64,000 bases of DNA from Gemmatimonadaceae bacterium (GTDB lineage Bacteria > Gemmatimonadota > Gemmatimonadetes > Gemmatimonadales > Gemmatimonadaceae), in NCBI GenBank assembly GCA_030647905.1, contig JAUSJA010000033.1, positions 1 through 64,000 on the forward strand, written 5' to 3'. The number at the start of each line of letters is the position of its first letter. The stretch's first letter is position 1. The position numbers and the translations under genes are program-made. The notes beneath the pieces are model-generated. The model ran no database searches. It saw nothing but the letters and a program-made list of their open reading frames with translations, and was not told where the DNA came from. Below, in pieces: positions 38,411-63,432 of this stretch.

Positions 38411-38616
38411 CCAGACGCCAGACGCACTACGGAGGCGTCGAAGCGGCTACGATGCTTTGCGTCTGGTTGATGCAGTTCGTGTACGTGGTGATGTCAGGTC
38501 CTGTTTCCAAAGTGCTCATACGTGCATATTCTGCGCGCCGCGCCTGTGCTGGCCGGTTCCAACCATCGACCCGCGCCGCACAGCATCTGGCGTGGGCAAG
38601 AGACTACGAGAGGATC

Positions 38617-45378: not shown

Positions 45379-45395
45379 AATTGGAAGGGGGTCGA

Positions 45396-46580
45396 ATGGG
45401 CTCTGGAGACGCTCCAACGCGCGCCGCGCTCGTGGAAAAGGCCCGCGACATCTACGACGACCTCGACTTCGGCGCAGTCCGCCGATGGCTCGCGGACCAT
45501 CCGGGACGGAAGGCGGCGGGCTACCTCCCAGTCTACGCGCCGCGCGAGATCATGCACGCGTGCGGATTGCTGCCGGTGGGCATCCACGGGGGCGGCGACC
45601 GGCTCGAGATCATTCGCGGCGACGCCTTCTACCAGTCGTACATCTGCCATCTGCCGCGCTCGGTCATCGAGTTGGCGCAGTCGGGGCGGCTCGACATGCT
45701 GTCGGCGGTGCTGTTCCCGTCAACGTGCGACGTGATCCGCAACCTCTCGGGAATGTGGAAGCTGCTCTACCCCGAGGCGTACGTCCGCTACATCGACGTG
45801 CCGCAGACTCCCGACAAGGGCGCCGCGGCGGACTTCTGGGAGAGCGAACTCCGCCGCCTGGTGCGCGACCTCGGCCGTGTCTCAGGACATCACCCGACGG
45901 ACGCCGAGCTGCGCTCGTCGGTGGAACTCTATAATGAAACGCGGGCGATGGTGCGCGCGCTCTACACGGCGCGGCGTGAGCGCCCGTGGGACCTGCCCAC
46001 CGAAGAGCTGTACGTCCTGCTTCGCGCGGGCGAGCTGATCCCCGCGGAGGAGTTCATCGCAATGTCGCGCGATTATCTCGCCGCGGTGGAGGCGGAACCC
46101 AGGCGTCCCCGCGACAACAGCCGCGTGGTCGTGGTTGGCGCGTTCTGCGAGCAACCCCCGCTCGGGCTGATCATGTCGATCGAGCGCGCCGGCTGCTACA
46201 TCGTGGACGACGACTTTCTGCTCGGCAATCGCTTCCTCACGCGCGACGTGCCGCTCGACGGCGATCCGGTGCGCGCTCTGGCCGAAGCGTTCGTCTCCAA
46301 CGACCAGCGTACGTCGGTGCTCTTCGAGAGCGACCCGCTCGGCAAGAAGCGGCTGATGAAGGAATGCGTAGCCGCCGCCAACGCCGACGGGATCATCTTC
46401 GCAACACCGAGCTTCTGCGACCCGGCGCTGCTCGACCAGCCGATGCTCCGTGCGGGCGCCGAGAATGCGAGCATCCCGTGCATCGCGTTCAAGTACGCCG
46501 AGAACACCGGGCAGTTCCAGCAGTTCCGCGAACAAGCCGGGACGTTCGCCGACTCGATCAAGCTCTGGGGGGACGCCTGA
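45396..46580 (+). CDS. bcrC: Benzoyl-CoA reductase subunit C-like (BcrC/BadD)
   Basis: 394-aa active-site subunit of the class I benzoyl-CoA reductase family (HgdB/HgdC superfamily), about the size of BcrC (roughly 43 kDa). Three conserved cysteines, C84 (SYICHLPRS), C111 (FPSTCDVIR) and C341 (TPSFCDPAL), are in the positions expected to ligate a [4Fe-4S] cluster. With subunit B it would bind the aromatic acyl-CoA and receive low-potential electrons from the ATPase pair. First gene of the operon: ribosome site ggaaggggg, ATG at 45396, TGATG overlap with the next gene. The gene order C-B-A-D is the same as in Thauera and Rhodopseudomonas. Confidence 0.9.
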   Translation: MGSGDAPTRAALVEKARDIYDDLDFGAVRRWLADHPGRKAAGYLPVYAPREIMHACGLLPVGIHGGGDRLEIIRGDAFYQSYICHLPRSVIELAQSGRLDMLSAVLFPSTCDVIRNLSGMWKLLYPEAYVRYIDVPQTPDKGAAADFWESELRRLVRDLGRVSGHHPTDAELRSSVELYNETRAMVRALYTARRERPWDLPTEELYVLLRAGELIPAEEFIAMSRDYLAAVEAEPRRPRDNSRVVVVGAFCEQPPLGLIMSIERAGCYIVDDDFLLGNRFLTRDVPLDGDPVRALAEAFVSNDQRTSVLFESDPLGKKRLMKECVAAANADGIIFATPSFCDPALLDQPMLRAGAENASIPCIAFKYAENTGQFQQFREQAGTFADSIKLWGDA

Positions 46581-47854
46581 TGGCTGAAGCGCTGAAGGAC
46601 CGCTCGATGGTGCTGCAGAAGGAGATGATCGCGAACCATTTCGCGCGGCTGGCGCGGGCCCCGGAAACGGGCGAGCCGGTGGTCTACACGTTCGTGCCCG
46701 GCAACCTCACCGAGCTGATTCGCTCGTTTGACGCACTCCCGGTACTACCCGAGATCAACGCGTTGCAGTCGGGGATGCGAAAGCTCTCAGGCGACTACAT
46801 CGCCGAGGCGGAGCGCGCCGGCCATTCCGAGGACGTGTGCACTTACGTGAAGTGTGACATCGGGATGATGCGCTCGGGCAACCTCGGACCAGGCGGCTTG
46901 AAGCTCCCCAAACCCGACTTGCTGCTCCTATCGTACACGGGCTGTTACACGTTCATGAAGTGGTTCGAGCTACTGCGCGAGGAGTATGACTGCCCGACAG
47001 TCATGTTCCACGTTCCGTACCAGGGCGACGGCGTGCTCGAACCGGAGCACCGCAACTACATGCTGCGGCAGCTCAAGGAGCAGGTGATTCCAGCGCTCGA
47101 GAAGGCGACAGGGCGCAAGTACGACGAAGACAAGTTGCGGCACCATCTCGCGCTCTCCGCGAAAGCCGAGGACGACCTGGTGGCCGTTCTGCAAGCGGGA
47201 AAGAACAGGCCGAGTCCGATTGATGGCTACTTCGGCACCGTTTACTACGTAGGGCCGATCTTCAGCGCATTTCGCGGAACCGAGGAAGGCGTCGAGTACT
47301 ACCGCGCGCTGCGACAGGAAGTCGAGGAGCGCGCGGCGCTGGGCCTGGGCCCCATCACACCGGACGGGCCGCTCGAGGGCGAGCGTTACCGGCTGGTGGT
47401 CGAAGGCCCGCCGAACTGGACACACTTCCGTGACTTCTGGAAGATGTTCTCCGACGAGAAAGCCGTGGTGGTCGCATCCACGTACACGAAGGTCGGCGGC
47501 ACCTACGATTTCGGCTTCAGGCACAATCCCGACGATCCGCTGGGCACACTGGCCGACTACTGCAGCGGGTGTTACACGAACCTGAATCTGCCGACCCGAA
47601 TCGAAATGATTTCTCGTTACATCGAGGAATATCAGGCCGACGGATTCCTGATCAACTCGGTCAAGTCGTGCAACTCGTTCTCGGCGGGCCAGTTGATGAT
47701 TCTCCGCGAAGTCGAGAAACGCACCGGCATACCGGGGGCATTCATCGAGTCCGATCTCGTGGATCCGCGCTATTTCTCAGCCGCGAACATCAAGAACCGG
47801 CTGGAGAGCTATTTCCAGATGATCGACGCGCGGCGACTGGGGAAGACAGCGTGA
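46580..47854 (+). CDS. bcrB: Benzoyl-CoA reductase subunit B-like (BcrB/BadE)
   Basis: 424-aa second active-site subunit (BcrB size, about 49 kDa). Cluster cysteines are C87 ([11 protein letters not shown]), C122 ([13 protein letters not shown]) and C364 ([10 protein letters not shown]); a further CSGCYTNL pair lies at 328-331. The substrate region has [15 protein letters not shown] and [17 protein letters not shown]. Together with BcrC it forms the ring-reducing half of the enzyme, converting benzoyl-CoA to cyclohexa-1,5-diene-1-carbonyl-CoA. Start ATG overlaps the bcrC stop (TGATG), and its stop overlaps the bcrA start (GTGA). Confidence 0.92.
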
Positions 47855-49122
47855 GTTGCGTCGTTGGCATCGACCTCGGCTCGACCACCACGAAAGCGGT
47901 CATCCTCGACGAGAACCGCGAGGTGCTCGGGCGCGGTATCACGAACTCCCGCTCCAATTACGACCTCGCCGCGGCGGTCGCGAAGACCGAGGCGTTCATC
48001 AACGCGCGGTTCGGACTCATCGAGCAGCAACTCCAGGCGACCAAGACTGTGGCGATGGTGAGCCGCCTGCGCCGCGCCTTCGTGATGGAGCAGATACTCC
48101 AGCAGTTGCGGCGGCTCGAGCAGCTGATGCTCGAAGAGAGCGAACGATCGGCGCCGGAACAGCTCAAGCCGGCGTTCAGGACGAGCATCGAGGAGATCTG
48201 CAAGCAGATCACGCTGGAAGAAGAGCAACGGTTCAAACAACCGCCGATGCTGCGCTCGGATTTCTTTCGCGATGCGGCGGGTTCGGCCTTCATGCGCATC
48301 GCCGAGCAAATCGCCGACCCGGCCGGTGTGAGCTTCGACCGCCTGGTGGGCGTGTACGACAAGTGCATCCTTCGGGTGGAGAACGAGCCACTCGACCTCG
48401 ACTTCCGCGATCACATCGGCGACGCGTTGCGGCGCGTGGGCGACCCCCCCGGCCTCGCCGACGCGATCGAGTACGCGGTTGCGAAAGACCTGGCGCCCTC
48501 GTACACGGTGGGAACGGGGTACGGCCGGGCGCGCCTTCCCTTCCCCAAGGAGCAGATCCGCTCCGAGATCCTGTGTCACGGGCTCGGCGCACACGCGATG
48601 TTCCCGGGCACGCGCACGGTACTCGACATCGGCGGGCAGGACACGAAGGCGATTCAGGTGGATCCGCAAGGCATCGTCACGAACTTCCAGATGAATGACC
48701 GGTGCGCGGCGGGTTGCGGGCGCTACCTCGGTTACATCGCCGACGAGATGAACCTCGGACTCCACGAGCTGGGACCCCTGGCCGAGCAATCGAAGCGGTG
48801 CGTGAAGATCAACTCCACGTGCACCGTGTTCGCCGGCGCGGAACTGCGCGAGCGTCTCGGACTCGGCGAGAAGCGCGAAGACATTCTCGCGGGATTGCAC
48901 CGGGCGATCGTGATTCGCGCGATGAGCCTGCTCGCGCGCTCCGGGGGTGTATCGGATGAGTTCACATTCACGGGGGGCGTGGCGAAGAATTCCGCCGCCG
49001 TGCATGCCATTCGTGACCTCGTCGGAGAGAACTACGGTGAGCGTACGCTCAATATCTCCCCGGACAGCATCTTCACGGGCGCCCTTGGCGCGGCGCTCTT
49101 CGCCAGCCGGATAGCCGCATGA
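47851..49122 (+). CDS. bcrA: Benzoyl-CoA reductase ATPase subunit A (BcrA/BadF)
   Basis: 423-aa ATPase of the BadF/BadG/BcrA/HgdC (ASKHA) family. Phosphate-1 motif [12 protein letters not shown] (6-17), phosphate-2 [10 protein letters not shown] (259-268), cluster cysteines C285 in [20 protein letters not shown] and C324 in STCTVFAG, and adenosine motif TFTGGVAKN. The long insertion between the two halves (about 90-230) and the CAAGCGRYL motif are specific to BcrA rather than to the shorter HgdC type. It hydrolyses ATP to lower the potential of electrons delivered to BcrBC. GTG start at 47851, within the bcrB stop. Confidence 0.93.
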
Positions 49123-50009
49123 CACATGTCAGCGCGGGAATAGATGTTGGCAGCGGCGCCGTAAAAGTGGCCGTGATGCGAACGGACGGCGACAAGGAAG
49201 AGACGGTCATCGCGAAAGAGTCGGCGCGAATCCGGCGCCGCGAAGTCGCCAAGGTCGTGGACGAAGTGTTCGAGGCCGCGGTGTCAGCGGCGGACGTGGA
49301 CGATATCCACTACATCGCCACGACCGGCGAGGGGGCGGAGTTCCCGTTCGCGACGGGGCACTTCTACGGCATGACGACGCACGCGCGAGGCGCGCTGTAT
49401 CTCGATCCGCGCGCGAGGGCAGTGCTCGATGTCGGCGCGCTGCACACACGTGCCGTCGCGATGGACGCGCGCGGGCGCGTGTTGGACTACAAGATGACAA
49501 GCCAGTGCGCGTCGGGCTCCGGGCAGTTCCTCGAGAACATCGCCCGCTATCTCGGCGTCTCGCACGACGAGATCGGCGCGCTTTCGATGGAGGCGAAGAA
49601 GCCGGAGAAGGTGAGCTCGATCTGCGCGGTGCTCGCGGAGACCGATGTCATCAACATGGTGTCGCGGGGAATCACGACACAGGACATCCTGCGCGGCGTA
49701 CACGAGAGCATGGCTGACCGCTTCGTGCGTCTCCTTCGATCGCTCCAGTTCGACGGCCCCGCGTTCGTGAGCGGAGGACTCGCGTCGGACGTCGGATTGC
49801 TCAGTGCGTTGCGCGACGGTCTCGCCAGGAAGGCAGGTGCGGCCACCGTTCCGTTCGACGTAGTGACGCACGCGGACGCCATTTTCGCCGGTGCGATCGG
49901 CGCTGCGCTGTGCGGGGGATTCCGGTACCGGAAGTTGGGCCAGGGGGGCGTCGCGTGGGCCGCCGCGCAGAGCATGGCCTCGGCCAGCTCGGGCACGGGG
50001 ATCGGATGA
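49119..50009 (+). CDS. bcrD: Benzoyl-CoA reductase ATPase subunit D (BcrD/BadG)
   Basis: 296-aa second ATPase subunit. Phosphate-1 motif [13 protein letters not shown]; the phosphate-2 region reads [10 protein letters not shown] (104-113), the form typical of BcrD in place of DIGGQD; cluster cysteines C130 ([13 protein letters not shown]) and C169 ([11 protein letters not shown]). BcrA and BcrD hold one [4Fe-4S] cluster between them. The ATG overlaps the bcrA stop (ATGA), and its own stop overlaps the next gene. Completes a class I, ATP-dependent benzoyl-CoA reductase; no ferredoxin gene is adjacent, unlike in Thauera. Confidence 0.92.
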
Positions 50010-50884
50010 CAATCGCGGCGATCGCCTATCACCGGCCGGCCAGCCTGGCGGAGGCGTGCGCGCTCGGCCAGCATTATGGGAGCGACGCGGCGTATCTGGC
50101 CGGGGGGACAGAGTTGATCCCCGACTATCAGCGCGAGCGGGAGACGGCGCGACATCTGATCGCGCTCGACAGCATTCGCGAACTGCGGGGGATCTCAGAG
50201 GAGGCCGGGCTGCTGAGAATCGGCGCGCTCACGACCATCGCCGAGATCGCCGCATCGCCGCTCGTGCGCGCGCGGCTCCCGGCGCTCGCTGACGCCGCGC
50301 GCGCGATCGGCAGCCCGCAGATCCGGAGCATGGCGACGATCGGCGGGAATTTCTGCCGCGCTGTGCCGTGTGCCGACACCCCACCCGCCGCCATCGCGTG
50401 TGCAGCTCGCGTGCGGCTCGTTGGCGTGCTGGGGGCCCGCGAGCTCGACGCCGAGGACTTCTTCACTGGCGTGCGGAAAACCGCGCTCGACCCGGGAGAT
50501 GTGCTGGTCGAGATCGTAGTGCCCGCGCAGCCCCACCACTCGGGCGCGAGCTACCAACGCTTCGCCCGGCGGCGTGGCCCTGCGCTCGCGGTCGCGGCGG
50601 TGGCGGCGCGGGTGACGCTCGAGAATGGGAAAATCACGGGCGCGCGCATCGCACTCGGTGCCGTGGCGCCGACCCCGATCATCGCAGCGCGAGCGGCCGC
50701 GCTGCTCGAAGGGGAGCCGCCATCCGACGCGCTCTTCGAGCGGGCGGCTGCGCTGTGCGCGCAGGACGCTCTGCCGATCAGCGACGTGCGCGGGTCGGCC
50801 GACTACCGGACGGAACTCGTCGGCGTACTTGCCCGGCGGGCGCTTCACGAAGCCGTGGCACGCGCGGCAGGTTGGGCCCAATGA
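50006..50884 (+). CDS. Molybdenum hydroxylase FAD-binding subunit
   Basis: 292-aa FAD subunit of the xanthine dehydrogenase/CO dehydrogenase family: YLAGGTELIPDYQ (pyrophosphate loop, 31-43), IGSPQIRSMATIGGNFCRA, and DTPPAAIACAARV. Context suggests a hydroxybenzoyl-CoA reductase (HcrB). But the extra [4Fe-4S] insertion, a roughly 40-residue block with four cysteines that is diagnostic of HcrB, is absent after the GGNFCRA segment. It may therefore be a hydroxylase for another ring, or a cluster-less reductase variant. ATGA overlaps join it to bcrD and to the next subunit. Confidence 0.85.
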   Translation: MTIAAIAYHRPASLAEACALGQHYGSDAAYLAGGTELIPDYQRERETARHLIALDSIRELRGISEEAGLLRIGALTTIAEIAASPLVRARLPALADAARAIGSPQIRSMATIGGNFCRAVPCADTPPAAIACAARVRLVGVLGARELDAEDFFTGVRKTALDPGDVLVEIVVPAQPHHSGASYQRFARRRGPALAVAAVAARVTLENGKITGARIALGAVAPTPIIAARAAALLEGEPPSDALFERAAALCAQDALPISDVRGSADYRTELVGVLARRALHEAVARAAGWAQ

Positions 50885-53715
50885 GCGGCGAGCTCATGAT
50901 CCGCCTGAATGTGAACGGCGAAGACCGCACGCTTGCCGTTCGGCCGAATGCGACGCTGCTCTCGGTGCTGCGGGACGACCTCGATCTCACGGGCGCAAAG
51001 CGGGGATGCGGCACGGGGGACTGCGGCGCGTGCACCGTGCAGGTAGAGGGCGAACCAATGGCGTCGTGCCTGCTGCTCGCCGTGGCCGCGAACGAAAAGC
51101 GCATTACCACGGTCGAGGGACTCGCCCGCGACGGTGATCTGCACCCACTGCAGAAATCGTTCGTCAAGCATGGCGCGCTCCAGTGCGGCTACTGCACGAG
51201 TGGCGCGCTGATGTCGGCCAAAGCGCTCGTTGACCGGGATCCCGATCCATCACGCGAAGACATCAAGACATCGCTCAGCGGGAATCTCTGCCGGTGCGGT
51301 GCGTACGGTCGGATGGTCAGCGCGGTTGAAGGGTGGAAGGAATATGATGGCGTGGCGCTCGACGCACGGCCGCACGCGCACGGCGAACGCGACCAGCAGC
51401 GGGACCACGCCGTGGTCGGCCACGGCGTCACGCGGTACGACGGGCCCGACAAGGTGACGGGCCGCGCGAAGTACACCGCTGACCTGCGGTTTCCCGGCAT
51501 GCTTCACGGAAAGCTGCTTGGGAGTCCCATCGCGCACGGGCGCATCACGCGGCTCGACGTTTCCAAAGCCCGCGCGTTGCCGGGTGTCGTTGATGTGCTC
51601 ACCGCCGCCGATGTACCGGATGGGTGGTACGGCGTCAGTCCCGCACGCGAGGACGAGCAGATTCTGGCCAGGGATCGCGTCCGCTACGTCGGCGACGAGA
51701 TCGCCGCGGTCGCCGCGGTGGACGAGGAGACCGCTGAGCACGCCATCAAACTCATCGAAGTGGAGTTCGAGGAACTTCCGGCGGTGTTCGATCCGCAGGC
51801 GGCGATGGCGCCGGGCGCACCGGTGATTCATCCCGAGAAGCCGCGCTATGCCGGCAACATCAACACGCGCGTGGACTGGGACTTCGGCGACGTGGAGAAG
51901 GGGTTCGCCGAAGCGGACCACGTGCGCGAGCAACGGTTCGTCGGCAACCGCACCTACCAGGCGCCGATGGAGCCGCACGCGGCGCTCGCGCGCTGGGAGC
52001 ACCACGCCGGCCGGCTCACGATCTGGTCGTCCACGCAAACACCGCACTACGTCCATCGTTCGCTGTCGCGGATGCTCGGCATCCCGATGGGGAACATTCG
52101 CGTGATCCGGCCGCCGGTAGGCGGCGGCTTCGGAGCCAAGGCCGAGGCGACGCCACTCGACTTCTGCTCCGCGATTTTCGCGAAGCGGACCGGCCGGCCG
52201 GTGATGATGGAGTACTCGCGCGAGGAGATGTTCAGGCACTTCCGCGGGCGCCACAAGCAGTACATCGACCTGAAGATCGGCGTGAAGCGCGACGGCACGA
52301 TCACCGCCGTGGAGCAGCGCGTCGTGCTCGACGGCGGCGCATACACGTCGTACGGCGTGATCACGGCGTACTACGCGGGCTCGATGCTGCCCACGCTCTA
52401 CAAGATGCCGAACTACCGCTACCGCGGCACACGCGTCTATACGAACCTGCCCGCATCGGGGGCGTTCCGTGGCCACGGCGTGCCGCAGCCGCGGTTCGCG
52501 TTCGAGTCGCTGCTCGACATGATCGCGGAAGACATCGGGCTCGATCCAATCGAGATTCGGCTCAGGAACGCGATGACGCCGAACACGCGCACGTGCAACG
52601 CGCTCGACATTACGTCGTGTGAGTTCACGGCAACGCTTCAGCGCGCGCGCGACACGTCAAAGTGGATCGAGAAGAAGGGCAAGCTGCCGCGCGGCAGGGG
52701 AATCGGGGTCGGATGCGGTGGGTTCGTTTCCGGCGCCGGGTATCCGATCTATCGGTCCGATTTTCCGCATTCGAACGCCGTCATCCGCGTGCACGAGGAC
52801 GGCACCGGCGTGTCGCTGCACATCGCCGCCGCGGAGATCGGCCAGGGATCCGACACCGTGCTCGTGCAGATGGCGGCGGAAGAGCTGGGGGTGCCTTACG
52901 AATGGGTATGGCTCGCGGATTGCGACACGACGACGAGTCCGCTGGATCTCGGCTCGTACTCGAGTCGGGTCACACTGATGGCCGGCCACGCGGTTCAGCG
53001 CGCGGCAGCGAAAGTGCGCGCGCAGCTGCTCGCGGTCGCTGCCACAGAGTTGTCGCGCGACGTCGCGTCGCTCGTCGCGAGGGGGGGCCGGATCTTCGCG
53101 AACAATGATCCCGCTATGGCAATGGACTGGGCCGTGGCTGCACGGCTCGCGTTCTCAGCGCAAGGCCCGGTCGTCGGGACGGGATCGTACCAACCGCCGA
53201 AGAATCTTGGCGGCGACTTCAAAGGAGGCGCCGTTGGCACATCGCCGGCGTACAGTTTCTCGACCGTGGTCGCAGAGGTCACGGTGGACCTGGAGACCGG
53301 TCAGGTCTCGGTGGATCGGGTGACGGACTTCAGCGACGCGGGCACGGTGATCAATCCGATCACGTTCCACGGCCAGGTGGAAGGTTCGATCGTGATGGGG
53401 CTCGGCGAAACGCTGCTCGAGGACACACTTTTCGACGCGAAGGGACGTGCCATGAATCCAAACCTGCACGATTACCTGATCCCGACGATGCTCGAAATTC
53501 CAGAGATTCACACGGCAGCGGTCGAAAGCTTCGAACCCAACGGTCCGTTCGGCGCGAAGGAAGTCGGGGAGGGATCCCTGCTCCCGGTGCTCGGCGCGAT
53601 CGCCAACGCGATCTACGATGCGTGCGGCGTCCGCGTCACCGAGTTGCCCATCACGCCCGAAAAGATCCTGCGCGGCCTGGCGAAACACGCCCCGGTCAAT
53701 GGAGTCCCCGCATGA
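50881..53715 (+). CDS. Fused [2Fe-2S] and molybdenum-binding hydroxylase subunit
   Basis: 944-aa fusion of the small iron-sulfur and large Mo subunits. Residues 1-160: plant-type [2Fe-2S] cluster C43, C48, C51, C63 (GCGTGDCGACTV) and a second cluster C102, C105, C137, C139 (QCGYCTSGALM, GNLCRCGAYG). Residues about 180-940: Mo-cofactor domain with PPVGGGFGAKAEATPLDF, AAAEIGQGSDTVLVQ and the C-terminal GPFGAKEVGEGSLLPV containing the active-site Glu. HcrA-like features are the last motif and VTELPITPEKIL. The fusion of small and large subunits is itself unusual for hydroxybenzoyl-CoA reductases, which keep them separate. Likely dehydroxylates or hydroxylates the aromatic acyl-CoA before or instead of ring reduction. 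Confidence 0.87.
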   Translation: MSGELMIRLNVNGEDRTLAVRPNATLLSVLRDDLDLTGAKRGCGTGDCGACTVQVEGEPMASCLLLAVAANEKRITTVEGLARDGDLHPLQKSFVKHGALQCGYCTSGALMSAKALVDRDPDPSREDIKTSLSGNLCRCGAYGRMVSAVEGWKEYDGVALDARPHAHGERDQQRDHAVVGHGVTRYDGPDKVTGRAKYTADLRFPGMLHGKLLGSPIAHGRITRLDVSKARALPGVVDVLTAADVPDGWYGVSPAREDEQILARDRVRYVGDEIAAVAAVDEETAEHAIKLIEVEFEELPAVFDPQAAMAPGAPVIHPEKPRYAGNINTRVDWDFGDVEKGFAEADHVREQRFVGNRTYQAPMEPHAALARWEHHAGRLTIWSSTQTPHYVHRSLSRMLGIPMGNIRVIRPPVGGGFGAKAEATPLDFCSAIFAKRTGRPVMMEYSREEMFRHFRGRHKQYIDLKIGVKRDGTITAVEQRVVLDGGAYTSYGVITAYYAGSMLPTLYKMPNYRYRGTRVYTNLPASGAFRGHGVPQPRFAFESLLDMIAEDIGLDPIEIRLRNAMTPNTRTCNALDITSCEFTATLQRARDTSKWIEKKGKLPRGRGIGVGCGGFVSGAGYPIYRSDFPHSNAVIRVHEDGTGVSLHIAAAEIGQGSDTVLVQMAAEELGVPYEWVWLADCDTTTSPLDLGSYSSRVTLMAGHAVQRAAAKVRAQLLAVAATELSRDVASLVARGGRIFANNDPAMAMDWAVAARLAFSAQGPVVGTGSYQPPKNLGGDFKGGAVGTSPAYSFSTVVAEVTVDLETGQVSVDRVTDFSDAGTVINPITFHGQVEGSIVMGLGETLLEDTLFDAKGRAMNPNLHDYLIPTMLEIPEIHTAAVESFEPNGPFGAKEVGEGSLLPVLGAIANAIYDACGVRVTELPITPEKILRGLAKHAPVNGVPA

Positions 53716-54417: not shown

Positions 54418-55629
54418 GTGCAGTTCAACGATGTCTGGATTCCCTACGGTGGGTACTGGTCCACGCCGTTCACCCCGTGGCAGGGGGCGTTCGCGACGCT
54501 GGCGCCGATTCCGTTCGCCGCCGAAATGGCGGCACGCGCCTTGTCGGATCGCGGCGTCGCCGCAACCGACATCGACGGTCTCTGCCTCGGCACGACCGTC
54601 GCGAGCAAGCATTCCTTCTACGGTGCTCCGTGGTTCGCCGGGCTGGCGGGCCTCGGCCACGTGGGTGGACCGACGATCAACCAGGCGTGCGCGACGTCGG
54701 TGCGCTGCCTGGTGCAGGCCGCACAGGAGCTCGAATCGAAGAGCGCACACACCTACCTGGCCGCCACCGCCGACCGCACCAGCAACGGTCCGCATGTGTT
54801 CTACCCGAATCCCGCTGGTCCAGGCGGCACGGGCGACTCAGAGAACCTCGTGCTCGACAGTTTCGGGCACGACCCGTACGCCAGGAATTCGATGCTGCAG
54901 ACCGCGGAGAATGTGGCACGCGAGGCCGGAATCACACGCGAAGCGCAGGAAGAGGTCACCCTTCTGCGCTACAAGCAATACGAGCGCGCGCTCGCCGACG
55001 ACAGCGCGTTTCTCAGGCGCTACATGTTGTGGCCGGTGGAGATCAAGGACGCGCGAGGCAAGAAGGTGCTCGCGACGGTGACTGGGGACCAGGGTGTCTT
55101 TCCGACCACGGCGGACGGACTCGCCGGACTCCGGCCCGTGATGGAGGGGGGCACGGTCACATTTGGCACGCAGACACACCCCGCCGATGGCAACGCGGCC
55201 ATGTTGCTCACGTCGGGCCGCGACCGCGCCCGCTCTCTCGCGCGGAATGGCACAGTGGACGTGCAACTGCTCTCGTACGGACAGGCGCGCGTCAAGAAGG
55301 GCTTCATGCCGATGGCGGTGCTTCCCGCCGCGAAGCTCGCGCTCGAACGCGCGGGAATCCAGCCGAACGCGCTGGCCAGCGTCACGACGCACAACCCGTT
55401 CGCCGTAAATGACGTGTACCTCATGCGGGAGTTGAAGCTCGACGCCGAGCGGATGAACCGCTACGGATGTTCGCTCGTGTGGGGCCACCCACAGGGACCG
55501 ACAGGGCTCCGGTCGATCATCGAACTGATCGAGGACCTGACGATCCTGGGCGGCGGATATGGACTGTTCACCGGCTGTGCCGCAGGCGACAGCGCCGCCG
55601 CGGTCGTGCTGAAAGTCAGCGTGCGCTGA
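54418..55629 (+). CDS. Thiolase family acyl-CoA acetyltransferase
   Basis: 403-aa thiolase-superfamily protein. The N-terminal nucleophile is in TINQACATSVRCLVQA (Cys near 88). C-terminal motifs are THNPFAVNDVYL (His), YGCSLVWGHPQGPTG (His) and LFTGCAAGDSAAAVVLKV, where Cys takes the place of the usual C-x-G-G-G-x-G cysteine. It is divergent from housekeeping thiolases but keeps the expected catalytic residues. Best guess is cleavage of 3-oxopimeloyl-CoA to glutaryl-CoA and acetyl-CoA, given the neighbours. GTG start at 54418 behind a strong gaggaggg ribosome site. Confidence 0.8.
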   Translation: MQFNDVWIPYGGYWSTPFTPWQGAFATLAPIPFAAEMAARALSDRGVAATDIDGLCLGTTVASKHSFYGAPWFAGLAGLGHVGGPTINQACATSVRCLVQAAQELESKSAHTYLAATADRTSNGPHVFYPNPAGPGGTGDSENLVLDSFGHDPYARNSMLQTAENVAREAGITREAQEEVTLLRYKQYERALADDSAFLRRYMLWPVEIKDARGKKVLATVTGDQGVFPTTADGLAGLRPVMEGGTVTFGTQTHPADGNAAMLLTSGRDRARSLARNGTVDVQLLSYGQARVKKGFMPMAVLPAAKLALERAGIQPNALASVTTHNPFAVNDVYLMRELKLDAERMNRYGCSLVWGHPQGPTGLRSIIELIEDLTILGGGYGLFTGCAAGDSAAAVVLKVSVR

Positions 55630-55659
55630 ACCATACGAATGGCCGAGAGGACCTTTACG

Positions 55660-56616
55660 ATGAACTATTTCGCCCCGAAAGAGGCTGCCGGATTCGGATT
55701 CAAGGACATCCTGTACGAGAAGAAAGACTGGGTAGGACGCATCACGATCAACCGGCCCGAGTCGTTCAATTGTTACACGACTGCCACGCTGCAGGAGCTG
55801 ATCACCGCGATCGACGACGCCTCGACCGACGACAACGTCGGCGTGATCGTGCTGACGGGCGCCGGCGACAAGGCGTTCTGCACGGGCGGCGATGTGAAGG
55901 AATACGCGAACACCTACACCAGGAGCCCGCACGACTACTTCAAGTACATGGGGCTCTTCGCCAAGTACATCGAGAGCATTCTGCGCAGCGGCAAGGTGAC
56001 GATCGCGCGTATCAACGGGATCGCGGTCGGCGGCGGCAACGAGACCCAGCTGGCGTGCGATCTCGCGGTCATGGCTGACGACACCTATCTCGGCCAGGTT
56101 GGAACGAGTGTGGGGAGCGTTGCCTGTGGCGGCGCGACCCAATGGCTGTCGATCCACGTGGGGGACCGCCGCGCACGCGAAATGCTGTTTCTCAATCCGC
56201 GCATCCCCGCGGCAAAGGCGCTCGAATGGGGACTCGTGAACCGTGTTGTTCCGCGTGCCCAACTCGACGAAGAAGTGGCGACGCTCGTCAAGCAGTTGCT
56301 CGAGAAGTTCCCCGAATGCACGCGTTACACCAAGCAGCAGGTGAACTACTGGAAGGAAGTGTCGTGGCACGCCACCGTCGGGCATGCGCGCGACTGGCTC
56401 TCGACACACTTCACCACGCTCGAGCCCTACGAGGGGATGCAGGCGTTCGTGGAGAAGCGGAAAGTGGACTTCATGGGACTGCGGCGCAAAGCCGCCGGAG
56501 CGGGAAGCAGCGAATTCCTCTGGGGCCCATACAGCAAGGCGTGCACCAAGTGCGGCGCGAAGGGTATTCCGGAGCAGTTCACTTACTGCGGCGGTTGCGG
56601 CGCCGCGCTCACATAG
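55660..56616 (+). CDS. Oah/BamA-like ring hydrolase (crotonase) with C-terminal zinc ribbon
   Basis: 318-aa crotonase-fold protein. Landmarks shared with 6-oxocyclohex-1-ene-1-carbonyl-CoA hydrolase are NRPESFNCYTT, LTGAGDKAFCTGGDVKEYA, YFKYMGLF, RINGIAVGGGNETQLACDLAV, YLGQVGTSVGSVACGGATQW and WGLVNRVVP. The roughly 45-residue block that follows VVP in Oah (normally about 375 aa) is missing. Instead the last 25 residues form a CxxC-x11-CxxC zinc ribbon (C295, C298, C310, C313) that Oah does not have. It probably hydrates and opens the alicyclic ring to give 3-hydroxypimeloyl-CoA. Start at 55660 has a gagagg site; an in-frame ATG lies at 55639. Confidence 0.72.
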   Translation: MNYFAPKEAAGFGFKDILYEKKDWVGRITINRPESFNCYTTATLQELITAIDDASTDDNVGVIVLTGAGDKAFCTGGDVKEYANTYTRSPHDYFKYMGLFAKYIESILRSGKVTIARINGIAVGGGNETQLACDLAVMADDTYLGQVGTSVGSVACGGATQWLSIHVGDRRAREMLFLNPRIPAAKALEWGLVNRVVPRAQLDEEVATLVKQLLEKFPECTRYTKQQVNYWKEVSWHATVGHARDWLSTHFTTLEPYEGMQAFVEKRKVDFMGLRRKAAGAGSSEFLWGPYSKACTKCGAKGIPEQFTYCGGCGAALT

Positions 56617-56629
56617 CACTGCGAATGTC

Positions 56630-57379
56630 ATGAGTCTCGAACTCGCTGGTCAGGCGGCGCTGGTCACTGGCGCTGGACGCGGCATCGGCGCGGCGATCGC
56701 GCGCGAGTTCGCGCGCGCTGGTTGCGACGTGGCGCTCGTGGAGTTCGGGGCGTTCAATGAAGCGCAAAGCCTGGCCGATGAGCTGCGCCGGTCAGGGAGG
56801 CGCGCGGTCGCGATCCGCGCCGACGTCTCGGATGTCGGCGCGGCTGAGCGGGCGGTCGCGGCCACGGTTGAGGCGTTCGGCCGGCTCGATCATCTCGTGT
56901 GCAACGCGGGCATCACGCGCGATGCGATGATCTGGAAGATGACGGAAGAAGCCTGGGACCAGGTGATCGACGTCAATCTCAAAGGCTGTTTTGCGTACTG
57001 CCGCGCGGTGGCGGGCTTGTTTCGCACTCAGCAGCACGGGCGCATCGTGAACATCGCGTCGATCAACGGGCTGCGCGGAAGGGCCGGGCAGGCGAATTAC
57101 GCGGCATCGAAGGCGGGGATCATCGCGCTCACGCGTACGCTCGCGCGCGAGCTAGGGCCGAAGGGAGTGAACGTGAATTGTGTCGCCCCCGGCATGGTGC
57201 GAACCGAAATGGCGGCGAAACTCCCGCCGACCGTCCTCGAGAAAGCCATCGCCGAAACGGCCCTCGGCCGGATCGCCGAGCCGGAGGACGTGGCGCGCGT
57301 CGTCGTCTTTTTGTGCAGTGAAGCCGCACGCCACATCACGGGAGAAGTCATCAGAGTGGATGGGGGCCAGTTGGCATGA
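56630..57379 (+). CDS. SDR-family dehydrogenase (hydroxyacyl-CoA, BadH/Had role)
   Basis: 249-aa classical short-chain dehydrogenase/reductase: cofactor site TGAGRGIGAAIA (13-24), NAG in LVCNAGITRD, and catalytic Ser-Tyr-Lys in IASINGLRGRAGQANYAASKAG, with the C-terminal ITGEVIRVDGGQ. In Thauera the 6-hydroxycyclohexene-carbonyl-CoA dehydrogenase (Had) is a zinc MDR enzyme, while in Rhodopseudomonas BadH is an SDR. An SDR sits here between the ring hydrolase and the dienoyl-CoA hydratase, so it most likely oxidises the cyclic hydroxyacyl-CoA to the ketone that the hydrolase opens. Thirteen bases after the ring-hydrolase stop. Confidence 0.82.
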   Translation: MSLELAGQAALVTGAGRGIGAAIAREFARAGCDVALVEFGAFNEAQSLADELRRSGRRAVAIRADVSDVGAAERAVAATVEAFGRLDHLVCNAGITRDAMIWKMTEEAWDQVIDVNLKGCFAYCRAVAGLFRTQQHGRIVNIASINGLRGRAGQANYAASKAGIIALTRTLARELGPKGVNVNCVAPGMVRTEMAAKLPPTVLEKAIAETALGRIAEPEDVARVVVFLCSEAARHITGEVIRVDGGQLA

Positions 57380-57415
57380 CACGTGAGAGATATGCATGAA
57401 CGGAGCGCGGACGCG

Positions 57416-58189
57416 ATGACCGGGAACGCAAGCCTCGTGAGGTATGAGGTGCGCGATGGCATCGCGCACGTGACGCTCGACGCACCGCCGCTCAACATCC
57501 TGAGCGCGGCGATGATGCTGCAACTCACCGACGCACTGGAACGCGCGCAAGCGGATCGCTCACTCACTGCGGTTGCGGTTGGCTCGAATGGTCGTGCGTT
57601 CTCCGCCGGCGCGGACATCGGCGAGCACCGTCCCGAGCAGGCTCCCGGGATGATCGCCGCCTTCAGCCGTCTGTTCCGCGTGCTGGGGGCGAGCGAGTTG
57701 CCCCTTGTCATGGCTGTAGACGGGGCGGCGCTTGGGGCGGGATTCGAGCTGGCGATGATGGCCGACGTGCTCCTCGCGAGCGATCGCGCGACGTTCGGTC
57801 AACCGGAAATCCGGCTTGGCTTCTTCGCGCCGGTTGGCGTCACCGCGTTGCCGGCGCGTATCGGACTCGCGCGTGCGCTTGAAATCACATGCACGGGACG
57901 CACGTACACGGCGGCGGAGATGCTCGCGATGGGCCTTGTGTCGCGCGTCATCGCGTTTGCCGAGCTGCCGGCGGCGATAGACGGTGTGCTCGCGGACCTG
58001 CGGCGCTCGAGCCCGCTCGTGATGCGGATGAACGTGCGGTTGACGCGAACGCTCTTCGGCCAGCCATTCGAGGATGCGCGCTGTGCGGCGGAACGTGTGT
58101 TCCTTGGCGAACTCATGGCGACGGAAGACGTCCGCGAAGGACTCGCGTCCTTCTTCGAGAAGCGCCGGCCGGCGTGGAAAAACCGATGA
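57416..58189 (+). CDS. Cyclohexa-1,5-diene-1-carbonyl-CoA hydratase-like (Dch)
   Basis: 257-aa crotonase, the size of Dch. Distinguishing features are LDAPPLNILSAAMMLQL at the N-terminus, FSAGADIGEHRPEQAPGMIA with the His-Arg-Pro turn characteristic of this subgroup, VDGAALGAGFELAMMADVLL, and FGQPEIRLGFFAPVGVTALP. It should add water to the conjugated diene made by benzoyl-CoA reductase. GTG at 57383 and ATG at 57392 are alternative starts; the ATG at 57416 is preferred because it begins the conserved N-terminus and follows a ggag site. Completes the early pathway: reductase, hydratase, dehydrogenase, hydrolase. Confidence 0.82.
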   Translation: MTGNASLVRYEVRDGIAHVTLDAPPLNILSAAMMLQLTDALERAQADRSLTAVAVGSNGRAFSAGADIGEHRPEQAPGMIAAFSRLFRVLGASELPLVMAVDGAALGAGFELAMMADVLLASDRATFGQPEIRLGFFAPVGVTALPARIGLARALEITCTGRTYTAAEMLAMGLVSRVIAFAELPAAIDGVLADLRRSSPLVMRMNVRLTRTLFGQPFEDARCAAERVFLGELMATEDVREGLASFFEKRRPAWKNR

Positions 58190-58220: not shown

Positions 58221-60536
58221 ATGAGAATCCTGATCGTCGGTGCAGGCGCGCTGGGAGGGCTCGTGGGAGCATTCCTCACGCGTGCAGGAGAGGATGTGAC
58301 GCTCCTCGAGACGAATGTTGCCCGCGCACATCTGCTCAACACGGACGGACTGCACATCGTGCAAACAGGACGCGATGAATCCATCACCGTTCCTCTGCGC
58401 GTCGTGACGTCGGCGGAAGGGCTCGAGCCGTTCGATCTCGTGTTCATCGCGGTCAAGACGTATCAGACCGAGGACGCCGTGAAGGCAGCGTTGCCGGCCG
58501 CGCATGCGGGCACGCGATTCCTGTCGATGCAGAACGGCATCGGCAATACGGAGGTCGTGGCAGGCCTTGTCGGTCCCGATCGCGTGCTGTGCGGCATCAC
58601 GTACCACAGCGTGCAGCACGTCGGCCCGGGGCGGCTGCAGTTCCGCGCCGGGATCAAACCGATCCAGATCGCACCATTCGACGGGGTCGTGACCCCCGCG
58701 ATCGACGCGATCGGCGAGACGTTTCGCCGCGCGGGGCTCGATACGACGGTCGTCGCGAACATCGACCACGCTGTGTGGCACAAGTTGCTGCACAACGCGG
58801 CAATCAATCCCGTCTCCGCCATCACCGGCCTCACCTGCCGCGAGATCCTCGGAGACGAAGACCTGCTGGCGTTCATACGCGACTTGTGCGCGGAAATTGT
58901 CGCCGTGATGCGCGCGCGCGGCGTTCCCATCGTCGATGAGGAAGATCCGTTCCGTCCGCTGCTCGGATCACTTAACGCGCTCGGAAACAATCGGCCGACG
59001 ATGTGGCAGGATCTCGCGCGGGGCGTGCGGACGGAAGTGGACGCACTCAACGGAGCGGTCGTGGCGGAGGCGAAACGACTCGGGTTGCTCGCGCCGCACA
59101 ATGCGGCGCTCGTGCGGTTCGTGCATTCACGCGAGCGGCAACGGTTTCTCAACCGGCAGCACATCACGCGCTCGCTGGGACTCGACAGCACGTCCCGAAC
59201 GAACCGGATGAGTTCCGCTGCCGGTGGCACCTTTGCGGCTGCGCGGCGGGCGGACCGCGGGAACCAGCCACAGGCACCGCCGCTCGAAAGCACGCGGCGG
59301 CTGAAGGAAATCGTGCAGGCGTACTACCGCGACCTTGGTGCCGCCTCCGATGATCCCAACCGGTTCGTCGCAGCGTGTTCAAGCCTCGCCCCCGTGGAGA
59401 TCGTTCGCGCGCTCGGAATCGCTCCCTACTCTCCGGAGAACCATGCGGTGCTCATCAGCGCGCGTCATGAAGCGGCGCGCTATCTGGCGCGCGCGTCCAC
59501 GGAAGGGTTCTCCGAGTTCTCCAGCTCAGCGATGCGCGCGGACATCGGTGCACTTCTGGCGCAAAGCAGCCCGCTCATCGCGGCTCATGGGATCAAAGGT
59601 CCGCCGCGCCCCGATGTCGTCGTCTACTCGACCAACACGGGGCAGGAACTGCTGCGCTGGTTCGAGTTCTATGGCGCCCACTTCGGCGTGCCCGTTGTGG
59701 GCCTCCATCCGTCGTCGGCGCTGCACGAGATGGACAGCACCGAATTGTACGGCGCGGTCGAGCAGTTGTTGCGTCTGGTCGAGCAAGTCGAACGCGCCAC
59801 CGGTCTTACGCTCTCCATGGACCGGCTTGGCGAAACGGTGGCGTACACGGCGCAGGCGGCGAAACTGTGGGGCGACATTCTCGATCTCGCGCGCGCGGCG
59901 CCGGCTCCGCTGACGTTTTTTGACATGCTGACCCACATGACACCGATGGTTGTGCTCCGCGGCACGCCAGAGGCGGTCGCATACTACCAACTATTGAAGA
60001 GCGAAGTCGAAAACCGTATTGCGAACGGCACCGCGGCGGTGCCCGGCGAGCGGCAGCGCTTCTACTGGGACGGTCCGCCAATCTGGAGTGCGCTGCGGCC
60101 GCTCGCGCAGATCTTCGCCGACCGGGGGGTCGCGATCGTGGCGTCGACGTTCTGCGCGACGTTCACGCTCACGGGGCTCGACCCGCGCGACCCGGTCGAG
60201 AGCATCGCGCGGACCTACGCCTCCGTGTTCAGCAATCGCTCGGAGCGATATCAGCGCGACTACCTCGCCGACAAGTTCGCGCGGTTCGGCGTCGACGCGG
60301 CGGTCTTTCACGATTCCCGCACGACACCCGAAGCGAGTCACGTGCGCTACGGGCTCGCGGTTCGGGCCGAGCGGCAGACGGGCGTGCCGGCGTTCGTGAT
60401 CGAGGCCGATTCGCACGACGAGAGACTGTTTTCGGCCGATCGACTGCAACAGCGGCTCGGGGAATTCCTGGAACAGCATGAACCGCAGACAGCGGGCGTC
60501 GGCGGGCGCCAGCGAATGGACACGAGGAGGAGGTAG
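58221..60536 (+). CDS. Ketopantoate-reductase-like domain fused to a cysteine-less HgdB/BcrB-type subunit
   Basis: 771-aa fusion. Residues 1-325 are a complete ApbA/PanE-type reductase: NAD(P) site GAGALGG (7-13), with K188, N192, N196 and E272 of ketopantoate reductase conserved (VWHKLLHNAAINP, TEVDALNGAV). A linker (about 326-355) leads to an HgdB/BcrB-type domain (356-755) that is collinear with the protein at 61376 (LTFFDMLTHMTPMVVLRG, FYWDGPPIW, VAIVASTFC). The three cluster-ligating cysteines of that family are replaced: S435, G474 and S699. The second half is therefore a cluster-less partner subunit, and the first half offers a nicotinamide site. I know of no described protein with this architecture. 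Start at ATG 58221, 31 bases after the Dch-like gene. Confidence 0.85.
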   Translation: MRILIVGAGALGGLVGAFLTRAGEDVTLLETNVARAHLLNTDGLHIVQTGRDESITVPLRVVTSAEGLEPFDLVFIAVKTYQTEDAVKAALPAAHAGTRFLSMQNGIGNTEVVAGLVGPDRVLCGITYHSVQHVGPGRLQFRAGIKPIQIAPFDGVVTPAIDAIGETFRRAGLDTTVVANIDHAVWHKLLHNAAINPVSAITGLTCREILGDEDLLAFIRDLCAEIVAVMRARGVPIVDEEDPFRPLLGSLNALGNNRPTMWQDLARGVRTEVDALNGAVVAEAKRLGLLAPHNAALVRFVHSRERQRFLNRQHITRSLGLDSTSRTNRMSSAAGGTFAAARRADRGNQPQAPPLESTRRLKEIVQAYYRDLGAASDDPNRFVAACSSLAPVEIVRALGIAPYSPENHAVLISARHEAARYLARASTEGFSEFSSSAMRADIGALLAQSSPLIAAHGIKGPPRPDVVVYSTNTGQELLRWFEFYGAHFGVPVVGLHPSSALHEMDSTELYGAVEQLLRLVEQVERATGLTLSMDRLGETVAYTAQAAKLWGDILDLARAAPAPLTFFDMLTHMTPMVVLRGTPEAVAYYQLLKSEVENRIANGTAAVPGERQRFYWDGPPIWSALRPLAQIFADRGVAIVASTFCATFTLTGLDPRDPVESIARTYASVFSNRSERYQRDYLADKFARFGVDAAVFHDSRTTPEASHVRYGLAVRAERQTGVPAFVIEADSHDERLFSADRLQQRLGEFLEQHEPQTAGVGGRQRMDTRRR

Positions 60537-60539
60537 CCC

Positions 60540-61379
60540 ATGCCAGACAGCGCGAGCGGAATCGCGGCGGGAGTGGACGTCGGAACGGAGTGCGTGAAGG
60601 CCGTCGTGATAACGGATGCCGGTCGCACGCTCGGTCGCTCGGTGATACCGACGCGCGGCTACTTCCAGGTCTGCGCATACGAAGCGCTGACCGCCGCTCT
60701 CGATGATGCGCACAGGCGGCTTGACGAGCTGACGGGGATCGGAGCGACTGGCTTCGCCATGACGTGCGTGCCGAACGCGACGGTCACGATAACGGAATCG
60801 GTGTCGCACGCGCGGGGCGCGTTTCATCACCGGCAACACGCCATGACGCTGGTGAACATCGGCGGCGGCGATCCGCACGTGATCATCGTTGACGCTGCGG
60901 GGCGCCGGGTCGGGGAGCGCGGCATGCGGCGCTGTGCGGTGGGGGTCGGGAGTTTTCTGATGTTTTCGGCGCGCCACCTCGACGTGAACGCGACCCAACT
61001 CGACGAGCTCGCCGCTGCGGCCGGCAACGATGCGGCAGCGGTGAGCAGCTATTGCTCGGTGTTCTCCGCATCAGAAGTGCTTGAACGGCTGCGTGAGGGC
61101 GCCACGCGCGAGCAGGTGGCGCTGGGCTGCATACGGTCCATCGCGCAGCGCGTGCTGGAACTCGGTGGCTTCGAAGATCCCGTCGTGATATCGGGGGGCG
61201 TTGCCGAGTATTTCCCAGGCGTGCTGCGTGCGCTGGAATCGCTCTCGGGATTGCAGCTGACCACGCTGCCGGAGCCGATCTTCACTGGCGCATTCGGCGC
61301 GGCACTCGCAGCGTTCAGTGACCAGTGGGAAGATCCAGCGCGCCGCGGCGTCGACCAGGCAGAAGGAGCGCTGAAATGA
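60540..61379 (+). CDS. Divergent BadF/BcrD-type ATPase subunit
   Basis: 279-aa ASKHA ATPase of the BcrA/BcrD/HgdC family. The fold is clear: phosphate-1 GVDVGTECVKAVV (11-23), cluster cysteines C132 (MRRCAVGVGSFLMFS) and C172 (SSYCSVFSASEVL), and late VVISGGVAEYFPGVL. The phosphate-2 motif is altered to NIGGGDPHVI (106-115), with Asn for the first Asp and no Gln-Asp pair, and the GSTTTK loop is GTECVK. It probably plays the BcrD role, holding the shared cluster with limited or no ATP hydrolysis, beside the canonical ATPase at 62620. Strong ribosome site gaggaggagg just before the ATG. Confidence 0.85.
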   Translation: MPDSASGIAAGVDVGTECVKAVVITDAGRTLGRSVIPTRGYFQVCAYEALTAALDDAHRRLDELTGIGATGFAMTCVPNATVTITESVSHARGAFHHRQHAMTLVNIGGGDPHVIIVDAAGRRVGERGMRRCAVGVGSFLMFSARHLDVNATQLDELAAAAGNDAAAVSSYCSVFSASEVLERLREGATREQVALGCIRSIAQRVLELGGFEDPVVISGGVAEYFPGVLRALESLSGLQLTTLPEPIFTGAFGAALAAFSDQWEDPARRGVDQAEGALK

Positions 61380-62620
61380 CCGAACTGGCCAGCACCAACG
61401 CGCTACGCGCCACCATGGACGCGTATTACCGTTCGTTGGCTGATGCCGCCCTCCGCAAGACCGCACCGGTAGCCTGGTGCACGAGTGCGGGGCCGGTGGA
61501 ATTGCTGCGCGCGCTGGGCTTTGCCGTGCATTTTCCCGAAAACCACGCGGCGATGATGGGAGCCGCGCGCACGGCGAGCCGTTACCTGCCGCTGGCGCAC
61601 GCGCAGGGATACTCGCAGGACATCTGCTCGTACCTGACGAGCGACATCGGCGCGTACCTCGCGGGCGAGTCGCCGCTCAAAGCTTACGGATTGGAGCGCG
61701 CGCCAGCGCCTGACGTCCTCGTGTTCAACACCAACCAGTGCCGGGATGTCCGTGACTGGTTCGAGTGGTACGGACGCGAGCTACACGTTCCCGTGGTTGG
61801 CGTGCACTCTCCGCGCTCGATCGACGACGTCACCGAAAGTGACATCGATTCGGTGACCAGGCAGCTCGAGTCGCTGGTGGCTCCACTCGAGCAGGTGGCC
61901 GGCACGCGGCTCGACGACGCGCGGCTGATGGCCGCCATGCGCGCGTCGAGGGACGCCGCGCGACTATGGGGGACATGTCTCGGGACAGCGTCGGCCCGCC
62001 CGGCGCCGTTGACCTTCTTCGACGGCTCCATCCACATGGGGCCGGCCGTGGTGCTTCGTGGAAGCGACGACGCTCCGGCGTACTACCGGACGCTGCTCGC
62101 AGAACTCGAGCAGCGGGTCGAAAACCGTGTCGCCGCCGTGCCGGGCGAGACACTGCGCCTGTATTGGGACGGCATGCCGGTCTGGGGACGGTTGCGGGCG
62201 CTATCGACGATGTTCGCTGAGTTCCATACCGCGGTCGTGGCTTCGACCTACTGCAACAGCTGGGCATTTGCGGACCTCGACCCCGCTGAGCCGTGGCGGT
62301 CCGTCGCCCGTGCCTCGCTCGAACTGTTCATCGCGCGCTCCGAAGCACCGAAGGAGCGGTACATCGCCCGCATGGTGAAATTCTACGACGTCGATGGCGT
62401 GATTTTCCACGACTGCCGCACGTGCCCAAACAATTCGAACACGCGCTACGGCATGCCGGGACGTATCACCGAACGCCTTGGGATCCCGACACTGGTGCTC
62501 GACGGGGACGTCAACGATCTGCGGTGTTTCTCCGACGAGCAGGCGCGCACGAATATCGAGGGATTCGTCGAACAACTGACCGATGCGCGCGGGGCGACGT
62601 CAGCGAGGGGATCGCGCTGA
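61376..62620 (+). CDS. HgdB/BcrB-type active-site subunit of a second reductase/dehydratase
   Basis: 414-aa protein of the 2-hydroxyacyl-CoA dehydratase/benzoyl-CoA reductase family. All three cluster cysteines are present: C84 (SQDICSYLTSD), C122 (NTNQCRDVRDWFE) and C347 (IFHDCRTCPNNS, with C350 nearby). Other landmarks are WCTSAGPVELLRALG, YWDGMPVWGRL and VVASTYCNSWAF. It is collinear with, and clearly a paralogue of, the C-terminal half of the fusion protein at 58221, so the two probably form a heterodimer with a single cluster. ATGA overlap with the upstream ATPase and TGATG overlap with the downstream one. Confidence 0.87.
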   Translation: MTELASTNALRATMDAYYRSLADAALRKTAPVAWCTSAGPVELLRALGFAVHFPENHAAMMGAARTASRYLPLAHAQGYSQDICSYLTSDIGAYLAGESPLKAYGLERAPAPDVLVFNTNQCRDVRDWFEWYGRELHVPVVGVHSPRSIDDVTESDIDSVTRQLESLVAPLEQVAGTRLDDARLMAAMRASRDAARLWGTCLGTASARPAPLTFFDGSIHMGPAVVLRGSDDAPAYYRTLLAELEQRVENRVAAVPGETLRLYWDGMPVWGRLRALSTMFAEFHTAVVASTYCNSWAFADLDPAEPWRSVARASLELFIARSEAPKERYIARMVKFYDVDGVIFHDCRTCPNNSNTRYGMPGRITERLGIPTLVLDGDVNDLRCFSDEQARTNIEGFVEQLTDARGATSARGSR

Positions 62621-63432
62621 TGAAATTCTACGCCGGCGTCGACAGCGGATCCTGGACGACGAAGGCAGCCGTCATCGACGAAGAGGGCCACGTGCTCGGC
62701 ACCGCCGTTACGCGGTCCGGCGCCGACCTGGCCGCGGCGGCCGAACGCGCGTATGCGACGGCCCTGGCAAACAGCGGCCGTACGGGCGACGACATCGAGG
62801 CGGTATGGTCAACAGGTTTTGGCCGGAACACGATTCCATTCGCGGACGGATCGCGCACGGAACTCGACTGTCACGGGCGCGGCGTGGCCTATTACCTCAA
62901 GGGACCGCTCGTGGTGATCGACGTCGGCGGGCAGGACGCGAAGGTCATCCGTCTCGATGCCGCGGGGCATCGTCTGTCGCATCGCATGAACCGAAAATGC
63001 GCCGCCGGCACCGGGAGCTTCCTCGACGAAATCTCGCTGCGGCTTGGCATCGACATCGGCGAACTGAATGCGCTGGGTCGCGGCGCGACCGAGAGTCTGG
63101 AACTCTCGAGTTTCTGCACGGTGTTCGCCGGAACCGAGTTGCTCACGCTGATCCGCAGCGGCAAGCGACCCGCCGACCTGGCGATGGCTGCATACCGCTC
63201 GCTCGTCAAACGCATCGTCTCAATGGACGTACTTGAAGGTCGCATCGCTGCGACGGGCGGCGTCGTGGCCTACCATCCGATCGTTGTCGAGCTGATCGGC
63301 GCTGCATGTCGCGGCGAAGTGGTCGTGCCTCCCCACCCTCAGGAGATCGGCGCGTTTGGCGCGGCGCTCGCCGCATTGGCCGCGTGCGAGGAGCACGACA
63401 CGTCGGACACGGCGGAGTTGGTTCAACCATGA
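62620..63432 (+). CDS. BadF/BcrA-type ATPase subunit (canonical)
   Basis: 270-aa ASKHA ATPase with intact motifs: GVDSGSWTTKAAV (6-18), DVGGQDAKVI (101-110), C127 in NRKCAAGTGSFLDE, C166 in SSFCTVFAGTELL, and AATGGVVAYHP. It is the short HgdC-type form without the BcrA insertion. Paired with the divergent ATPase at 60540, it would provide ATP-driven electron injection into the HgdB-type heterodimer. TGATG coupling to the subunit at 61376 and ATGA to the synthetase downstream. Confidence 0.88.
   Translation: MKFYAGVDSGSWTTKAAVIDEEGHVLGTAVTRSGADLAAAAERAYATALANSGRTGDDIEAVWSTGFGRNTIPFADGSRTELDCHGRGVAYYLKGPLVVIDVGGQDAKVIRLDAAGHRLSHRMNRKCAAGTGSFLDEISLRLGIDIGELNALGRGATESLELSSFCTVFAGTELLTLIRSGKRPADLAMAAYRSLVKRIVSMDVLEGRIAATGGVVAYHPIVVELIGAACRGEVVVPPHPQEIGAFGAALAALAACEEHDTSDTAELVQP

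Follow-up and report, generated by a model that had tools for sequence, protein, structure and literature searches.

A predicted cluster-free dehydratase-type subunit fused to a ketopantoate-reductase-type domain in Gemmatimonadaceae

The first 64,000 nucleotides of contig JAUSJA010000033.1 from a Gemmatimonadaceae bacterium (GenBank assembly accession number GCA_030647905.1), here called the window, were found to carry genes for two paralogous HGD-D proteins, only one of which retains the cysteines that hold an Fe-S cluster in this family. The other forms the C-terminal part of a 771 aa fusion protein (FUS; 58221..60536, forward strand, ATG at 58221), the N-terminal part of which is of the ketopantoate-reductase type, and a profile search matched FUS to the Pfam families ApbA, ApbA_C and HGD-D, all above cut-off. 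The HGD-D domain of FUS (59280..60490, forward strand) scored 165.9 bits with PF06050 and the partner subunit (PAR; 414 aa, 61376..62620, forward strand) scored 211.7 bits, against a cut-off of 28.4, such that both belong to the superfamily. The two share 42% identity over 398 aligned residues with one single-residue gap (E 5e-110). Genes for two activases, activase 1 (60540..61379) and activase 2 (62620..63432, start at 62620), lie on the same strand between FUS and PAR and after PAR, respectively. The four genes adjoin or overlap one another here, as they do in Gemmatimonadota relatives, and in the window the stop and start codons of activase 1, PAR and activase 2 overlap. Five Acidobacteriota that carry FUS have their PAR gene elsewhere, either at a distance or on a different contig, a point against the pairing proposed below.

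The catalytic aqua-[4Fe-4S] cluster of BzdO is held by Cys95, Cys128 and Cys380, and the coordination in HadB is the same (PMC11971306). C84, C122 and C350 of PAR (TGC codons at 61625, 61739 and 62423) align on the Cys triad of HadB, BzdO, BzdN (73/100/327), HadC and DCCP, and PAR also keeps W34, Y86, Y292 and E55. This proximal triad, present in PAR, is missing from FUS, where the three positions are occupied by S435 (AGC, 59523..59525), G474 (GGG, 59640..59642) and T702 (ACA, 60324..60326), all on the forward strand. C386 and C645 are the only Cys residues in the HGD-D domain of the window's FUS, and neither is at a triad position. An earlier sequence-only reading had reported these replacements together with S699 (TCC, 60315..60317, forward strand), and the codons, read directly, bear out all four residue numbers and substitutions. 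Its statement that all ligand positions had changed holds for S435, G474 and T702 and not for S699, which faces PAR C347 (TGC at 62414). That column is Cys in most Gemmatimonadota fusion orthologues; HadB has N there, MbdO V, BzdN Q324 and the majority of single-copy relatives Ala, so that S699 is ruled out as a fourth ligand position and the true ligands lost number three, not four. The HGD-D domain of FUS is predicted to bind no Fe-S cluster.

The same replacements recur beyond the window. Among 25 distinct fusion orthologues Cys was found at ligand position 1 in none (Ser or Asn in 25/25), at position 2 in none (Gly in 24/25, Ser in 1/25) and at position 3 in four, all from Acidobacteriota, with Thr, Ala or Ser in the rest, while the triad is intact in 35/35 PAR proteins or single-copy relatives. 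The survival of the third Cys in these four fusions indicates stepwise loss, with the third ligand the last to go. Judged by these alignments, ligand loss in FUS is an old, shared and clade-wide trait. Samples of 395 Gemmatimonadota genomes and 396 genomes of the Acidobacteriota phylum contained fusion orthologues in 16 and 7 cases, respectively; the Gemmatimonadota in this group are from soil and permafrost, and some Acidobacteriota also belong to it. Among named relatives the closest are MAGs of Gemmatimonadaceae, of which one shares 87% identity, and a plasmid collection gave remote matches only (<32% identity).

AlphaFold2 models were built from own-locus alignments, with a mean pLDDT of 80 for the fusion and 89 for PAR. 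Both models have the three-domain HGD-D fold and superpose on HadB, BzdO and MbdO with Z-scores of 42–49. HadB is the closest structure for both, with Z 47.1, 2.1 Å over 393 residues for FUS and Z 48.8, 1.8 Å over 396 residues for PAR. Thus a superposition of the kind that the sequence-only reading had proposed as a check (there on BcrB/HgdB), carried out here with predicted models, finds the fold of FUS retained.

The best explanation overall, to which a probability of about 0.6 was assigned, is that the HGD-D domain of FUS, within the 2-hydroxyacyl-CoA dehydratase/class I benzoyl-CoA reductase family, has become a pseudo-subunit free of any cluster, which would support the single catalytic cluster of PAR while keeping the activase docking surface and holding the reductase domain in place. 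The pattern of residue loss agrees with a pocket that no longer works as a catalytic site. Thirty-four positions are conserved in PAR, single-copy relatives and outgroups, and FUS keeps 27 of these; the seven exceptions comprise the three Cys, the equivalents of PAR Y86 and Y292, and two mild changes (L115V, G341A). The probability that all five pocket residues would fall among the seven losses by chance is P = 7.5e-5 (0.006 for the Cys alone). The two tyrosines correspond to BzdO Tyr97 and Tyr298, whose role is to bind the oxygen of the thioester (PMC11971306), and are replaced in FUS by A437 (59529..59531; Ala or Gly in 25/25) and F644 (60150..60152), both on the forward strand. As both substrate tyrosines are also gone, the whole catalytic pocket appears to have been dismantled, beyond the cluster alone.

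Several of the replacements are themselves fixed or nearly so across FUS, namely Gly at ligand position 2 (G474, 24/25), M438, F648 and H732 (each 25/25, the last being Asn in the partners) and P619 (24/25), and for this reason a new function may have arisen in the pocket. It could hold another ligand (a CoA ester, a substrate passed on by the reductase, or a flavin), which would make FUS an active or regulatory cluster-free subunit, not a scaffold. HgdAB enzymes bind flavin, and Glu406 of FUS (BzdO Glu65) is kept in 25/25 orthologues, both of which favour such re-use; however, no known binding motif was recognised in FUS and the two tyrosines that would hold a thioester are gone, so that re-use of the pocket is considered rather unlikely.

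A second alternative is that FUS binds a cluster through other Cys residues, for instance as the distal remnant of a double cubane. The double cubane of BzdN has the extra ligands Cys36, Cys263 and Cys293 (PMC11971306); C645 of FUS aligns with Cys263 and C386 is one residue off the Cys36 column. In many Gemmatimonadota orthologues three or four of a set of non-triad Cys (C386, W-C623, C645 and that of an HDC motif) are kept, and their retention, although inconsistent, speaks against a cluster-free FUS. However, none of these Cys is conserved across FUS, C645 and HDC being missing in most Acidobacteriota, BzdN Cys293 is unmatched, and the window's domain retains C386 and C645 only, which makes a cluster at this site improbable.

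Returning to the pseudo-subunit, selection on its gene was assessed by pairwise dN/dS (Nei-Gojobori) among orthologues, another of the checks proposed earlier. Values of 0.03–0.26 were obtained for the HGD-D domain of FUS and of 0.05–0.16 for PAR, that is, purifying selection on both. In the window's own clade FUS gave 0.22–0.26 against 0.10–0.12 for PAR, about twofold higher, relaxed yet still purifying, which indicates that the structure is less strictly conserved there; in other lineages FUS gave 0.03–0.16, similar to PAR. The fusion reading frame is intact in every aligned orthologue, and the 25 orthologues in independent genomes together with the dN/dS values rule out a pseudogene or an assembly error. 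That FUS is merely decaying and is kept solely through its attachment to a needed reductase domain is very improbable, since the twofold dN/dS in the window's clade, the long stem branch of FUS (0.88) and the additional loss of the HDC and W-C cysteines in that clade are outweighed by PAR-like values elsewhere, intact frames, the 27 deeply conserved positions kept and the conservation of the replacements themselves. The proposal of selection for structure without a cluster, put forward in the sequence-only reading, is thus upheld by the intact frames, the dN/dS range, the retained fold and the clade-wide lack of the triad, with the absence of the cluster itself predicted from residues.

A working model can be proposed on this basis. 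FUS probably pairs with PAR, as suggested by the shared operon and by the family to which they belong, and the sole catalytic three-Cys [4Fe-4S] cluster would be in PAR. Activases 1 and 2 have the BcrA/D-type ASKHA ATPase domain (PF01869, above cut-off) and one Cys pair per subunit, C132/C172 in activase 1 and C127/C166 in activase 2, with both pairs kept in all relatives aligned. With all four bridging-cluster Cys kept, the two activases would dock on the FUS-PAR heterodimer, and the ATP-driven electron may pass from the activase cluster directly to that of PAR with no relay cluster between. Known dehydratases receive the electron at the cluster of subunit A, from which it passes on to the catalytic cluster in subunit B (PMC8473912), so that direct transfer would be a departure from known heterodimers, in which the cluster of the other subunit is loaded first. 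The pseudo-subunit would retain the dimer and docking surfaces and tether the reductase domain, which may serve an adjacent step in this pathway. A more detailed version, put forward tentatively as less likely than not, is that this one-cluster enzyme receives the electron directly from a heterodimeric activase, and that an NAD(P)H-dependent reductase domain on its stripped subunit passes its substrate or its product on to the radical site. The phosphate motif of activase 1 is altered (NIGGGDPH instead of DIGGQD.K) and that of activase 2 is canonical (DVGGQD); an altered motif also occurs in BzdQ of the benzoyl-CoA reductase set located upstream (DVGALHT).

The reductase domain of FUS (58221..59160, forward strand) is of the PanE/ApbA ketopantoate-reductase type, with the nucleotide motif GAGALGG and a TIGR00745 score of 250.8 bits, above the cut-off of 141.35. 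The N-terminal half of the fusion model gave Z 35.0 to ketopantoate reductase and 34.5 to D-mandelate dehydrogenase. K188, N105 and E272 are invariant in 16 orthologues, and we take them to have the catalytic roles of their counterparts in E. coli PanE. This domain, here taken as 58221-59222, is the only match to ApbA_C (PF08546) in the genome from which the window derives. No published description of an HGD-D/ketopantoate-reductase fusion was found in the literature searched, the one hit being unrelated.

The genes preceding the fusion (54418..58189, forward strand) gave profile matches to a thiolase-like protein, an Oah-like crotonase, an SDR and a dienoyl-CoA-hydratase-like crotonase, in an order kept in relatives, and they tie the block to benzoyl-CoA breakdown. 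The Oah-like crotonase (55639-56616) has a Cys-rich, zinc-ribbon-like C-terminal tail (CTKCGAKGIPEQFTYCGGCG). About 8 kb upstream of the fusion is a canonical class I benzoyl-CoA reductase set (45387-50009; BcrC, BcrB and two activases), in which the BcrC/BcrB pair (45387-47854) scored 493 and 700 bits, above the NCBIfam cut-offs. Two HGD-D systems are thus side by side in this genome, an arrangement kept in several relatives, and as the block is tied to benzoyl-CoA breakdown and a genuine BcrC/BcrB pair is present, the fusion system is an extra HGD-D enzyme there. FUS and PAR are far below the cut-offs of the benzoyl-CoA reductase profiles (TIGR02260: 125.5 and 132.9 against 486.55; TIGR03191: 64.6 and 91.8 against 448.6), and with the true BcrCB pair upstream, the fusion system is disfavoured as the benzoyl-CoA reductase of this genome. 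Between the two systems are molybdenum hydroxylase genes (49973-53715) closest to 4-hydroxybenzoyl-CoA reductase, the alpha subunit scoring 948 bits, just below the cut-off of 995, and at this locus the 2Fe-2S and Mo domains are apparently fused in one ORF. Further upstream, a multi-pass membrane protein, as judged by eye, is encoded twice by near-duplicate genes (38452-39948 and 43805-45127) about 5 kb apart.

In a phylogenetic tree all FUS domains form one clade (support 100/100) on the stem branch mentioned above, sister to PAR and the single-copy relatives. An origin of FUS inside the PAR clade is disfavoured (AU p 0.024), a result weakened by the long branches. Some Acidobacteriota carry together a separate PanE-type reductase gene, one PAR-like HGD-D gene and one activase gene, in some cases accompanied by a CoA ligase and beta-oxidation genes; a search of the literature gave no account of this module. 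In four genomes of the Acidobacteriota phylum with the module, which are MAGs of unstated completeness, the HGD-D gene is the only one genome-wide. Separate parts and a single HGD-D gene suggest an ancestral homodimer in which both active sites were equivalent, and the simplest reading is that one of these was later dismantled: HGD-D and activase would have been duplicated from such a module of reductase, HGD-D and activase, after which one active site decayed. Direct descent of the fused reductase domain from the separate reductase genes is not supported, as the two are in separate clades of a quick tree, and the association of a reductase with HGD-D may have arisen twice.

These data suggest that one cluster site, of the two usual in this enzyme family, can be enough for function. 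Cys-to-Ala variants of BzdNO were too unstable to be obtained (PMC11971306), and FUS would be their natural counterpart; as a cluster-site variant under purifying selection, it makes the need for a relay cluster directly testable. The homologues also display the steps of the loss, from single-copy separate genes through Acidobacteriota fusions with one ligand left to Gemmatimonadota fusions with none.

Compared with known systems, the N-terminal domain of the fusion shares fold, nucleotide motif and the K188, N105 and E272 residues with ketopantoate reductase and D-mandelate dehydrogenase of the PanE family (PDB 5ayv, 5x20). FUS and PAR have the same fold as the HGD-D subunits of HadBC with HadI (PDB 3o3m), and PAR shares with HadB the three-Cys site, the Tyr after the first Cys and the Glu of the PEN motif, although with the HadB NCBIfam equivalog FUS and PAR scored 150.8 and 192.7, below the cut-off of 750. 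HadB and HadC are distant paralogues with a cluster in each, whereas FUS and PAR are both HadB-type and FUS is ligand-free; in addition, unlike in HadBC, one subunit is fused to a reductase and there are two activase genes. Two HGD-D subunits and two different activases also make up BcrCBAD, BzdNOPQ and MbdONPQ (PDB 8s02, 9g87, 9gai), and class I benzoyl-CoA reductase operons share dienoyl-CoA-hydratase-like and Oah-like genes with the block described here. Unlike these reductases, the FUS-PAR system is without a relay-cluster subunit of the BzdN/BcrC type; profiles for that type gave no match to FUS or PAR, both of which match HadB/BzdO. The chemistry of the family has been explained by losses of sub-clusters from a double-cubane ancestor, each subunit keeping a cluster (PMC11971306). 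The double-cubane site of DCCP (PDB 6eno, 7yyl) has six ligand Cys per subunit, whereas PAR is without an equivalent of the sixth and FUS without the entire proximal triad, and a full double cubane is ruled out in both as BzdN Cys293, the sixth ligand, has no counterpart in either. DCCP itself belongs to the same fold family and is a homodimer with one activase, like the state suggested for the single-copy relatives in Acidobacteriota.
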